NCBI GenBank assembly: GCA_018828145.1 | Contig: JAHJWO010000021.1 | Span: 1-64,000 of the forward strand | From: Alphaproteobacteria bacterium | Lineage (GTDB): Bacteria; Pseudomonadota; Alphaproteobacteria; Rhizobiales; Devosiaceae | DNA length: 64,000 bases | Direction: 5' to 3' | Shown: piece by piece, positions 56,961 through 63,286 of the stretch | Layout of the letters: each line of letters begins with the position of its first letter | Numbering within the stretch: position 1 is the stretch's first letter | Notes under the pieces: generated by a model | What the model was told of the DNA's origin: nothing | Seen by the model: only the letters and a program-made list of their open reading frames with translations | Databases searched by the model: none | Translations under genes and position numbers: made by a program

Positions 56961-57050
56961 TGCAGGTGGCCCGATCAGATGATGTAAAGAGGATTGGTAT
57001 GCCGGGAGGGAGAAGGAGTAGAACCTAACAAGAGACCGCCCCTTTGAAGA

Positions 57051-57314
57051 TCAAGCACTTAGGAGAGAATTTTGAGGTTCGTGCCGCGATTTTGTTACAC
57101 GTTTGTTGCGCGTTTGTTGCGCGATTCTGGCGGCATTTTTCACGCGTTCTAGCGTTAGCTCACGCTCGACTGCCCCGTCAAGTTCACGCTCAAGGCGCTC
57201 GAAGATCGGCAGGTACGCGTCGCCGTGGGCAACAATGATTTCCGCGACCGTCGCTAGGGCAGCCTGCAGTTGCTCCGAGCTGTATCGCCGCTTTGCGATA
57301 GCGGCGCCGGTCAT
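57051..57314 (-). CDS. Small island protein, unknown
   Basis: An 87-residue protein starting MTGAAIAKRRYSSEQLQAAL. It is mainly helical: a likely globular helix pair to about residue 60, then a very basic end (AARIAQQTRNKRVTKSRHE). Its ATG overlaps the stop of the ParB-like gene (ATGA), so the two are coupled. No family is recognised. Confidence 0.65.
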   Translation of the reverse strand: MTGAAIAKRRYSSEQLQAALATVAEIIVAHGDAYLPIFERLERELDGAVERELTLERVKNAARIAQQTRNKRVTKSRHEPQNSLLSA

Positions 57315-58138
57315 GCGCCAGCCCCCGTCTCGATCTTCTTCGAGGTGGTCCGATTGTACATCTCGCCGATAGTGCGGGCGAATGCGGCCTCGGCTGATCC
57401 GCCGACCAGCTTGCGTAGCCCGTCTGCAGCCGCGTCAATCTCGGCGAAGGTCTTGCCGGCCAGGATGCGAGCCAGCCGGTCGGTGTCGATTCCCCGGTTG
57501 CTCTCGATCAGCTTTGCCACGCTGACGATCAGAATGCCGCGTAGGGCAGCCGGATCATCCGTCCAAGCCGCGCAGATAGCCAGCAGCGCCTGTTTGGTCG
57601 CCAGGTCGCCATAGAGGGTGACGGAGCGGGTGAGGGCGCCTACGGCCGCCGTTGACCCCGGCGGCATGCCCGCGCCGGCCCTGCGGGCGATCTCGCAGCC
57701 CGCGGACTGTACCACGCGCTCCACTCGGAGGCAGACGGGATCCTCAGCAGCCACGCCAGCCCAGTACTTGTCGATGGCGGTTATCGCCTTGCGGTCGAGG
57801 TTGAGGGCGAGGAAGTTCTCGGCCTCCAGCTGCACACCGGTGGCGTGAATGATCGTGGCCGGCACATGGGTCACATCGGGGTGCAGCTTGGCGGCCCGTG
57901 TGCGGTGTTGGCCATCGGTGACATGGAAGCGGCCAGATGGCTGCGGCGACAAAACCACGGCGCCGAACTTGTCCCACCGGAAGCCAGCGACGATCCTCTC
58001 GACCGATCGCTCGTCGAGGCCGCGCTGATAGGTGGCGTCTACGTCGATCAGGTCGACATCGACCCAATCCAGAGCCGGCACTTCGCCAATATTGAAGTTC
58101 GTTTTCACGCGCGTCAGCCTGCCTATGGATGCCGCCAC
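57311..58138 (-). CDS. ParB/DGQHR-type nuclease-domain protein of the island
   Basis: A 275-residue protein whose N-terminal half (about 20-125) has the ParB-like fold pattern: VDVDLIDVDATYQRGLDERSVERIVAGF, FGAVVLSP and the motif GRFHVTDGQHRTRAA. The rest is helical. Related phage proteins are nicking or partition-like; no dedicated partner ATPase is seen. GTG start at 58138; a GTG eleven codons in (KTNFNIGEVP) is an alternative with a better ribosome site. An inverted repeat lies about 105-140 bases upstream. Confidence 0.75.
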   Translation of the reverse strand: MAASIGRLTRVKTNFNIGEVPALDWVDVDLIDVDATYQRGLDERSVERIVAGFRWDKFGAVVLSPQPSGRFHVTDGQHRTRAAKLHPDVTHVPATIIHATGVQLEAENFLALNLDRKAITAIDKYWAGVAAEDPVCLRVERVVQSAGCEIARRAGAGMPPGSTAAVGALTRSVTLYGDLATKQALLAICAAWTDDPAALRGILIVSVAKLIESNRGIDTDRLARILAGKTFAEIDAAADGLRKLVGGSAEAAFARTIGEMYNRTTSKKIETGAGA

Positions 58139-60899: not shown

Positions 60900-61282
60900 G
60901 CTTCTCGAAACTCCATACTCAACTCGGACGACGCAAGTCTCGGGGTGGCCAGGGCCGTCTCTGGGGCGACGATGGCCATGGCGGGGCAGGCGGATCGAGG
61001 GTTTCGGACGGTCCGCGGAATTTGTCTTTGGCCCAGCCTCGCCCCCTAGGGCGGGCGCTGGCGCCGGGTGGGGGGATATATAAGGGGGGAGGGACCGCCC
61101 GTGGAACCGCCCGTGGACCGCGCGTTTAACAAAATCAATCACTTAGCACCAACCGCGCGAACCGCCCGTGGAACCGCGCGTTTAACCGCCCGTCTAATGA
61201 AATCAATGACTTAGCTTGGTTTGCACGGGCGGTTCGGGCGGTCCAGACGGAACCGCCCGTGAGCGTCTCCGCCCCCTTTGGC
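60900..61282. promoter_or_regulatory. Candidate replication origin with iterons beside the primase-helicase gene
   Basis: Two clusters of 12-bp direct repeats (ACCGCCCGTGGA / ACCGCGCGTTTA types): units at 61094, 61106 and 61117, and at 61161, 61173 and 61185, plus a partial unit at 61152. Each cluster is followed by the same box AAATCA-ATS-ACTTAGC (61132-61147 and 61200-61215). A perfect 12-bp inverted repeat of the same unit lies at 61224-61235 and 61250-61261. This is the form of an iteron origin bound by a replication initiator. The rest of the gap (60900-61090) holds no gene. Confidence 0.6.
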
Positions 61283-63286
61283 TTACATGCCGAAGACATT
61301 ATCTGGCTCCTGCTCTGGAGCTGTCTGGATAACTATCTCGTCGTACGGGTGGCCGTTATTCCGGCGAGTGCCGACTGACAGCGCGATGGCACCTGAACGC
61401 ATTAGGCGCTCGTACGAAGCTTCAAGGCTCCCGCGGTCATAGCCGCGAATTTCTGGCGCAGCCCGCGCCAATGTGAGCGCGAAGTTGCCGGCCTGCTTCT
61501 TCGGACTGAACCACTCGCCGCGGCCTGCCAGTACTCGGAGTGCAGCGAGCAACGCGCGATCTGTCTCCATTGCTGGGTCCAGGCCATCGGTGGAAACGAA
61601 GGCGCCGCGATCCCATCGTACCCTCAGCTCCGTTCCCATCTTCCCGTAGTTGGCCTTGGTGGTCCTGATCGTGCGGTAATCTCCTTCGAGGTCTTCCTTT
61701 GGCCTCGACATGTACAGTCTGCTGCGGGAAGCGTTGGCCCATCCAGTGGATCCGGAGCGGCCGCTGCCATCCGCCATTCCAGACACCGACGGGTGCGCCA
61801 GGGCGATGGCCGTTGTCTTGTGTTCGATGCACAGCCGGTTGAGCGTCCGGTTCATGAAGCCGGTGACTTCGGTCCGGCTGAGTTCATTGCCAGCAAACAT
61901 GTTGGCGATGGGATCGACCACAACCAACGCCGGCTGCAGCAGCGCAACGGCCGCCTGCAGCCGCGCGAAGAAGGGCATCAGCTTGCCCTCCGGGTGCTCG
62001 CGTGGGAAACTCATCATTACGCAGCCGCTGTCGGGGATGTGGTCAGCAGTCCACAGGTTCATGCCGCCAAGGTCGGCCATGGTGAGATCCATCGACCTGT
62101 TGATGTCGATCTGACGCCGCCAAATCTCGTCAGTGTCATCCTCAGAGAACACGCAGAGCACGCGCCCTGGCTTCACCGACCGGCCAAACCAAAGGCGGTC
62201 CGCGCACACGGCTGTGGCCAGTTGTTGGGCCACCAGCGTTTTGCCAACGCCGCCGTCGCCGGTCAGAAGGGTGGTCTTGTGGAGTGGCACCATTCCGTCG
62301 ACCAGCGACTCCCGCGCCGGTGGCGTCAGGTCCCCGAAGTCGATCGGCCTGGCAAACGCAAGAGGAGAGCGATTGTCGTTCGCAGGCCCCGCTATCTCGA
62401 CCGCATCGAATTCCGCCATCGCGTCTTTGACGCCAGGCCGCGAGGTGCCGTAGGCGTACGCGTTGGCGACGATCGACATCAGCTTGTCGGCGTCCCATGG
62501 CGGCTCAGCCTTGGTTTCGTTCCAGTGTTCGAGCATCAGGTCGGAGCATGCGAATTCCGAGATGCCGAAGTCCTTGAGCGATGCTGCCACCTTGTAGGTG
62601 GTCAGGTCGCCCGCGGCGAAAGCGATTGCGCCAGGGGCTGCCCCGCGCAGATATTCGATGGCTCGCGCGATGTTCGGTTCGGTGTCCAGATCGGCGAGCG
62701 GCTGGCTGTCTGCCTTCTCCCGTGGCTTTTTGCCTGCGACGATGGTGTCAACGAACCACTGGGGCGCCAAGGGCATGTCGCCGTCGTGGACAGTAGCGTA
62801 TGGGGTGCCGTTGACCACGCTGCCTGGCGCGACGACTAGGCCGCCGTCAGCCCGTATGTCGATGCCGGGGTAGTCCGTTAGCGACTTCACGCCATTGGGC
62901 ACCCATTGTCCATCCGGGATCGTGAGGTAGGCGTGACGGCCCCCCGAGGGGGTATCGACCACGAGACCCAGATCCACACCAATCACAGATTTGATCAATT
63001 CCAGAGACGCTTTGCCCACAGCGCCATCAGCGTCAATGACAAGGAGCCCGTCGCCGGTGGCGATCCCGACATTGGCGTCCGCATAATCGCCTTCGAACCA
63101 AGCCCGTACGACCGCCGGATCTGTGGAAGCTGCCGCCTGCCATCCAGCGAAGGCGGGTCGTTTCATCCCAGCTAACAGGGGGAAGACGCGAAGGCCGCGC
63201 CCGGCGAGGAGTAACGCCTGCTTGAGATTTTCAGGATGCACTGAGGCGGTGCGCGCCGCTGGCGCGGAGACGGATTTGCTAGTCAA
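61283..63286 (-). CDS. Primase-polymerase / RepA-type helicase replication protein
   Basis: A 667-residue fusion: an N-terminal bifunctional primase-polymerase domain (about 20-190; PAFAGWQAAASTD, LLVIDADGAVGKAS, DTPSGGRHAYLTI, PGIDIRADGGLVVAPGS) and a C-terminal AAA/RepA-like helicase domain (about 320-560; Walker A TGDGGVGKTLVAQQ, Walker B PALVVVDPIANMF, and LAHPSVSG). Such proteins drive replication of phages, satellites and plasmids. The TTG start at 63286 has AGAGGG 7 bases upstream. The iteron array at its 3' side is the likely target. Confidence 0.88.
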   Translation of the reverse strand: MTSKSVSAPAARTASVHPENLKQALLLAGRGLRVFPLLAGMKRPAFAGWQAAASTDPAVVRAWFEGDYADANVGIATGDGLLVIDADGAVGKASLELIKSVIGVDLGLVVDTPSGGRHAYLTIPDGQWVPNGVKSLTDYPGIDIRADGGLVVAPGSVVNGTPYATVHDGDMPLAPQWFVDTIVAGKKPREKADSQPLADLDTEPNIARAIEYLRGAAPGAIAFAAGDLTTYKVAASLKDFGISEFACSDLMLEHWNETKAEPPWDADKLMSIVANAYAYGTSRPGVKDAMAEFDAVEIAGPANDNRSPLAFARPIDFGDLTPPARESLVDGMVPLHKTTLLTGDGGVGKTLVAQQLATAVCADRLWFGRSVKPGRVLCVFSEDDTDEIWRRQIDINRSMDLTMADLGGMNLWTADHIPDSGCVMMSFPREHPEGKLMPFFARLQAAVALLQPALVVVDPIANMFAGNELSRTEVTGFMNRTLNRLCIEHKTTAIALAHPSVSGMADGSGRSGSTGWANASRSRLYMSRPKEDLEGDYRTIRTTKANYGKMGTELRVRWDRGAFVSTDGLDPAMETDRALLAALRVLAGRGEWFSPKKQAGNFALTLARAAPEIRGYDRGSLEASYERLMRSGAIALSVGTRRNNGHPYDEIVIQTAPEQEPDNVFGM

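Follow-up and report, generated by a model that had tools for sequence, protein, structure and literature searches.

Layout of the locus and its island

The window, a stretch of 64,000 nucleotides, comprised positions 1 to 64,000 of the forward strand of contig JAHJWO010000021.1 from Alphaproteobacteria bacterium (Devosiaceae; GCA_018828145.1). On its minus strand the window encoded a 667-aa protein, and an array of short repeats lay on the 3′ side of that gene, 21 bp from the stop codon (Table 1). At E-values up to 0.001, Pfam matched the protein to Prim-Pol (PF09250, E 2e-33), AAA_25 (PF13481, E 4e-29) and, as a sub-cut-off match, KaiC; neither a PriCT nor a zinc-binding domain was found in the protein by Pfam. 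Among solved structures, RSF1010 RepA was closest to the helicase family profile (1g8y, E 3e-19), and the predicted fold of the helicase part also matched RSF1010 RepA (1nlf, E 1.9e-13). The last 100 residues fell outside the RepA profile match.

AlphaFold models covered aa 304-667 (mean pLDDT 88.1) and the C-terminal domain alone, aa 565-667 (78.6). The C-terminal domain was modeled as three helices followed by two strands. Fold searches with the lone domain returned mostly winged helices (among them DnaD-N, ORC/Cdc6 and MCM C-terminal domains) with modest scores. Because the best Foldseek E-value was 0.03 (DnaD N-terminal domain) and VIA-align Z-scores were under 8, the winged helix is claimed as a fold class alone.

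Table 1. Positions of the array, its neighboring features and the candidate origin of phage WO. Coordinates are those of the window unless another source is named.
Feature	Position	Strand	Details
Island left end, 20-bp copy of tRNA-Lys 3′ end	56991..57010	+	Right copy at G000:C12:80192-80211 (L004:16192-16211)
Hairpin behind TATA element, putative priming or terminator structure	61030..61065	-	Window z -0.85
C-tract/TTATATAT/C-tract element, putative melting site	61070..61089	-	Gene sense CCCCCCTTATATATCCCCCC
Iteron cluster 1	61094..61128	+	Units at 61094, 61106, 61117
Box 1, AAATCAATCACTTAGC	61132..61147	+	Perfect IHF-consensus fit at 61133-61145
Iteron cluster 2	61161..61196	+	Units at 61161, 61173, 61185; short unit at 61152 before it
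Box 2, AAATCAATGACTTAGC	61200..61215	+	Perfect IHF-consensus fit at 61201-61213
Two inverted iteron units	61224..61242	-	Inverted copies at 61224-61235 and 61235-61242
Gene-nearest iteron unit	61250..61261	+	Perfect inverted partner of 61224-61235, 12-bp stem
Putative initiator gene, 667 aa	61283..63286	-	Prim-Pol aa 24-177; RSF1010-RepA-like AAA_25 aa 311-503; predicted C-terminal winged helix
C-terminal winged helix (aa 565-667), candidate iteron reader	61286..61594	-	AlphaFold models, fold matches
Phage WO candidate origin, behind RepA/ATPase gene	L152:4192-4460; KX522565 about 62165-62430		AAGTTGGCAA array and IHF-type site

Between 61094 and 61261, the array was comprised of two clusters of three 11-12-bp units of the ACCGCCCGTGGA type (pattern ACCGC[C/G]CGT..), with the clusters 67-68 bp apart and successive units 12 or 11 bp apart. 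One 16-base box (AAATCAATSACTTAGC) followed each cluster; the two boxes were 68 bp apart and identical at 15 of 16 bases. In 300 bp of the array, one 10-mer occurred in eight copies (at most one mismatch), a count reached in none of 300 dinucleotide shuffles of the array (maximum 3). Among 425 half-overlapping 300-bp tiles of the 64 kb, the array ranked first and the runner-up (tile 18301) had six copies. Half of the ACCGCSCG octamers in the 64-kb window (10 of 20) fell in the array. Coordinates and shuffles thus bore out the layout described in the initial annotation: three units and a 16-base box, twice, 67-68 bases apart, and then an inverted pair. Its placement of the array at a replication gene also held, the gene being the Prim-Pol/AAA_25 gene 21 bp away. 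Its "three 12-bp units" per cluster were right in number; the spacing is 12 or 11 bp, and a short unit that it did not list precedes the second cluster.

The IHF-site consensus is WATCAANNNNTTR. Over 84 kb only two sequences fit this consensus, and both were the window boxes; the host genome carried ihfA and ihfB genes over the cut-off. Going beyond the initial annotation, we regard the 16-base box as a probable IHF site and not as an iteron read by the initiator.

A 20-bp repeat of the tRNA-Lys 3′ end occurred at 56991 and 80192, and the gene and array are therefore most likely part of an integrative element about 23.2 kb long. Its genes included a DUF6538-type integrase beside the tRNA, a second tyrosine integrase, Mob_Pre and a KAP-family NTPase. 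Among direct repeats between the island flanks, the 20-bp repeat was the longest, followed by one of 17 bp (57613/64134, no tRNA) and one of 14 bp. The 17-bp repeat, AGAGGGTGACGGAGCGG, lay at 57613-57629 and at 64134 (L004:134-150), the latter copy close to where the inner integrase gene starts. The island also held a ParB-like/DUF6551 gene at 57311-58138 on the minus strand (PF20188, E 3e-9; PHROG 1033, E 1e-20). A 1026-aa protein encoded at L004:1646-4726 on the minus strand contained recurring P-P-G-F-V-L-like motifs and matched nothing in Pfam or PHROG; by its look it may be a phage internal virion protein.

Recurrence of the layout in relatives

Relatives were drawn from genome and viral-contig searches; in one search, 80 of 358 reported relatives were taken. 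The first set of 115 loci contained 113 with a helicase-matching ORF (L001 and L019 were left out), of which 88 were distinct at 90% identity and 86, the window counted as one of them, had the full 260 bp behind the stop codon. The second set, from a viral-contig scan with another profile, was comprised of 80 loci and phage WO and yielded 34 distinct new loci, 32 of them with 260 bp. An array was defined as at least four copies of a 10-mer, with one mismatch allowed and both strands counted, in the 260 bp behind the stop codon; the four-copy threshold and the TATA pattern used below were chosen after the first set had been seen.

Arrays stood behind the stop codon in 66 of 86 first-set loci, compared to 1 of 80 upstream regions and 10 of 749 regions behind other ORFs of the same loci. 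In the second set the counts were 27 of 32 behind the stop codon and 1 of 32 upstream, or 26 of 31 behind it when phage WO, whose array had been inspected beforehand, was left out. In total, 93 of 118 distinct relatives (window included) had an array behind the gene, compared to 2 of 112 upstream regions and 10 of 1180 shuffles. The initial annotation had named lack of the array in related elements as evidence against an origin; what was found in these 93 relatives was a layout that is kept and a repeat sequence that is not. Repeats varied by element and included TTCCAACCCC, TTCATCCCC, CGCGATCTCC and GTGCAACCC among others. Across the 66 first-set arrays, the most frequent spacing was 11 bp (109 of 312), spacings of 10-12 bp made up 177 of 312, and the median distance between the first base of the stop codon and the first repeat copy was 7 nt.

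Fewer than four copies were counted in 25 of the 118 relatives: eight had three, and 17 had two or fewer, which equals background. Weak arrays were visible by eye in L009 and L015, which were left out of the positives. The low scorers L136, L139 and L143 stem from places with stops inside the genome-search match. L001, scored separately, had seven copies in 500 bp. Some low-count relatives (L105, L137, L216 and L217) keep the Y-A-P motif of the winged helix; this motif showed no link to array presence (80/19 against 13/6, p 0.23).

A C-tract/TATA/C-tract element (e.g., CCCCCTTATACCCCC) followed the array in 68 of 118 relatives, compared to 4.5 expected from shuffles. In the first set it was found on the sense strand in 57 of 86 loci, on the antisense strand in one and upstream in three. 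It was rarer in the second set (11 of 34, compared to 0 upstream), and this second rate is the fairer one, as the pattern had been defined from the first set. Behind the element, a hairpin with z below -2 was predicted in 34 of 56 loci, compared to 2 of 54 for the 75 nt that follow and 6 of 55 for the upstream control; the window's own hairpin was not significant alone. In first-set loci, iterons of the TTCCAMC type changed direction at the TATA element: 114 were in gene sense and none antisense before it, and 36 were antisense and one sense after it. The window differed from this main family: its clear units, the inverted ones included, stood between the gene and the TATA element, and beyond that element only 2-mismatch copies occurred. 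Three loci (L062, L075 and L080) had CGCGATCTCC/CGCATCTCCC-type arrays followed by an alternative element, CTCCCTTCCTAAAGGAAGGGAATAT, with no C-tract/TATA element there.

IHF-type boxes were also counted by region. The first set, including the window's two, had 7 in 22,418 bp behind the gene, 1 in 21,384 bp upstream and 16 in 382,080 bp elsewhere. The second set had 11 in 8,365 bp behind the gene (10 in 8,105 bp without phage WO) and none in 8,537 bp upstream; elsewhere there were 6 in 144,945 bp. Such boxes were enriched behind the gene, but loci that have one there were a minority: 14 of 122, namely 6 of 88 in the first set and 8 of 34 in the second. Boxes also occurred inside the arrays of relatives, and in three loci they were paired 57 bp apart, 11 bp less than the 68 bp in the window. 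The boxes of L060 and L098 lay outside the array, and L169 had a box and no counted array.

Among named relatives, Wolbachia phage WO (KX522565) had eight copies of AAGTTGGCAA in the 260 bp behind its ATPase gene gwv_1128, with one perfect IHF-type site between the clusters.

A candidate replication origin and its alternatives

The winged helix of the window protein shared only 10-25% identity with those of its relatives. Structure alignment A3 contained 67 of 83 prepared relatives and the window, and A4 contained 65 of those 67 and the window. With the helicase core allowed for, iteron similarity correlated with winged-helix identity (partial rho 0.27; maximum of 300 permutations 0.17). The helicase core, with the winged helix allowed for, gave a partial rho of 0.07 in the smaller locus set. 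When all 93 array loci were used, the values were 0.22 for the winged helix (reached in 0 of 500 permutations) and 0.15 for the helicase core (reached in 5 of 500); as the core keeps this correlation, a share of common ancestry remains. By these sequence comparisons, relatives with similar winged helices tend to have similar iterons, more so than the helicase core accounts for, with some shared ancestry possible.

One pair of relatives illustrated this link. L050 and L014 had 85% of their DNA in common over a stretch that begins upstream, includes the helicase core and ends about 312 bp before the stop codon of L050. Per 30-residue block, the winged helix of L050 was 67-80% identical to that of L016 and 43-50% identical to that of L014. 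Likewise, the iterons of L050 (CTTCCAACGC) matched those of L016, not those of L014 (CTTACCCCCT). As judged from their sequences, L050 and L014 are a natural recombinant pair in which winged helix and array differ together, and either element may be the recombinant.

The DNA itself shows how the locus is built, that relatives share this build, and that winged helix and iterons change together. On this basis, the region 61030-61261 is very probably the vegetative replication origin of the island, placed directly behind the gene of its own initiator. An origin read by the adjacent primase-helicase, as proposed in the initial annotation, is supported as the best explanation by the recurrence of the layout in the 93 relatives. 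Contacts of the initiator and of IHF with the DNA, the melting and priming steps and autonomous replication are inferred for 61030-61261. The C-terminal winged helix of the initiator would bind the 11-12-bp iterons, and a bend made by IHF at each of the two boxes would bring the iteron clusters onto one face. The RepA-like helicase ring could then assemble and open the flanking C-tract/TATA/C-tract element, and synthesis of the first primer would fall to the fused Prim-Pol domain, with the hairpin behind the TATA element as a possible site. Against this reading stand the 25 low-count relatives, the correlation that the helicase core keeps, the low identity of the window's winged helix to the others, the small share of loci with IHF-type boxes, the rarer TATA element in the second set, and the one-sided clear units and non-significant hairpin of the window.

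Three other explanations were weighed. The repeats could instead be an operator/terminator region, through which the initiator or another regulator controls the gene or its downstream neighbors, with the inverted pair as a terminator. Iteron initiators often repress transcription too, and pairing of the inverted copies by the stop codon would give a 12-bp stem. However, a T-run is absent after the stem, and the simple terminator reading of the inverted pair was rejected for that reason. The arrays also lie behind the gene and not at the promoter (upstream 2 of 112), and they are followed by a melting-type element and, across much of the family, by iteron sets of opposite direction. A region of the same layout maintains a plasmid in a phage-inducible chromosomal island (PICI), according to the account of its origin in PMC6092414. 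An operator/terminator role is thus unlikely.

The 16-base boxes could also belong to a recombination site (attP or a site for an integrase or excisionase) and not to an origin. IHF is known to take part in integrase att sites, and a sequence nearly the same as the box, ACAAAATCAATGACTTAGC, lay behind a tRNA-Arg gene of the same genome. Box-like sequences (at most two mismatches) occurred at 50 places in 39 of 136 family genomes, the host's own included, compared to 2 places for the reversed control, and 8 of the 30 places fetched were beside a tRNA gene. These positions fit the part IHF plays at att sites; the box itself was absent from the island's own ends. Since IHF sites are expected in att sites as well as in origins, the same sequence is expected at tRNA genes and within arrays. 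Against a recombination site, the island most likely ends at the 20-bp tRNA-Lys repeat (56991 and 80192), away from the array, and the boxes recur inside the arrays of relatives, paired as described above. The att-site reading, prompted by the copies behind tRNA-Arg and other tRNA genes, was rejected as the main reading for these two reasons, and we consider it very improbable. Sequences like ACAAAATCAATGACTTAGC were observed directly or closely behind tRNA genes at the following places: L005:8302-8320 (G000:C29), L023, L025, L033-L035, L039, L044 and L048.

The probability of a chance or compositional repeat is negligible: the window is GC-rich and tile 18301 reaches six copies, but the shuffles of the window array (0 of 300) and of the relatives (10 of 1180) refuted it.

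Comparison with known replicons

In the RSF1010/IncQ replicon, RepA is the helicase, RepC the initiator and RepB′ the primase, and iterons of about 20 bp lie beside the replication genes. The locus resembles this system in the position of its iterons and in its helicase, a RecA-fold homologue of RepA by both structure matches given above. It differs in that helicase, putative iteron reader and primase are one polypeptide and that the iterons are 11-12 bp. The Rep protein of Staphylococcus aureus pathogenicity islands (SaPIs) is a helicase of another type and is not known to have a RecA fold. The RSF1010-RepA-like AAA_25 helicase of the window has a predicted RecA fold and would probably differ in this from PICI/SaPI Rep.

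In layout the locus is like PICI/SaPI rep-ori regions. In the PICI origins described in PMC6092414, the iterons stand immediately 3′ of rep, with two iteron sets around a melting site, and plasmid maintenance was demonstrated for EcCICFT073; for SaPI Rep, origin reading is assigned to the C-terminal domain (PMC6092414; PMC7581432). Iterons immediately 3′ of the replication gene were likewise found in the window, at 21 bp, and in 93 of 118 relatives. Shared features, as far as these accounts go, are an origin directly 3′ of the replication gene, short iteron sets around a presumed melting site, and primase and initiator that are sometimes fused there and are fused in the window protein. The opposed TTCCAMC iterons around the TATA element make the family as a whole like PICI origins as there described; the window differs in having its clear sets on one side. 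Because of this likeness, the statement in the initial annotation that the array resembles no known origin was too strong. Differences from PICI/SaPI included the C-tract/TATA/C-tract element in the melting position, IHF-type boxes between clusters, and an island with a Mob_Pre gene and two integrases. The best reading of the locus is a self-contained initiator-helicase/origin cassette, with a predicted RecA-fold helicase in a PICI/SaPI-like layout.

Similar protein architectures have been described among the PrimPol-PV1 primases of mobile elements (Kazlauskas et al., 2018; PMC5862659). There, PrimQH proteins join a primase to a P-loop helicase, RepA-type or other, and to a C-terminal winged helix with a suggested role in recognizing the origin, and InversePrim is a primase fused to a RepA-family helicase. 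The window protein has the PrimPol, P-loop helicase and predicted C-terminal winged-helix architecture of PrimQH; the PriCT or zinc-binding domain of most PrimQH members was not found in it by Pfam. By architecture it is likened to both PrimQH and InversePrim and placed in neither. In PMC5862659, the word "iterons" occurs 0 times, and the passages on these families describe proteins, not origins. Such architectures and the idea of origin recognition by a winged helix are already described, and the origins themselves appear to be new: among the open-licence PMC papers listed, no title or abstract opening described origins behind AAA_25/RepA-like initiator genes.

Two further systems place an origin or repeats behind such a gene. 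In pRN1, as summarized in PMC4234260, the origin lies within 166 bp downstream of the ORF904 gene for a PrimPol-helicase-winged-helix protein; this system differs in its SF3 helicase and in a stem-loop in place of iterons. In SCCmec, according to the part of PMC7581432 on Cch2, the repeats bound by this helicase directly follow the gene that encodes it, the same position as here; this system differs in its polymerase-type primase CCPol-MP, in its 5-nt iterons and in that Cch2 was shown to act 3′-to-5′.

On balance, we favor the view that these elements are one-protein replicons of a widespread class that seems not to have been described. In them, a RecA-fold (RSF1010 RepA-like) helicase would serve as both initiator and replicative helicase, read an origin behind its own gene through an exchangeable winged-helix/iteron cassette and open a fixed CCCCC-TATA-CCCCC element, with some members carrying their own PrimPol. 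If true, a testable origin could be named from sequence alone for most such elements, including Wolbachia phage WO, a phage of wide interest for which a precise candidate origin is offered here (Table 1). The rule of looking directly behind the AAA_25 helicase gene would give candidate origins in many prophage- or satellite-like elements. The natural difference in domain and array among L050, L014 and L016 is a ready test of how a helicase gains a new origin specificity.

At an E-value of 1e-5, the window protein matched 159 phage and 55 plasmid records, none of them over 80% of its length. Among the 40 of 159 phage matches listed, the helicase was the main part matched in just five, namely four Wolbachia records and a faecal contig; the others matched the Prim-Pol side. 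At E-values up to 1e-20, the L061 helicase matched 2 of 50,697 isolated-phage records and 1 of 72,556 plasmid records (Azospirillum); with this query, the class was nearly missing from both collections. On an Azospirillum brasilense plasmid (NZ_CP059450; L151:13165-13500), two box-like sequences but only two repeat copies lay behind the helicase gene, a region that may be a degenerate or different origin.
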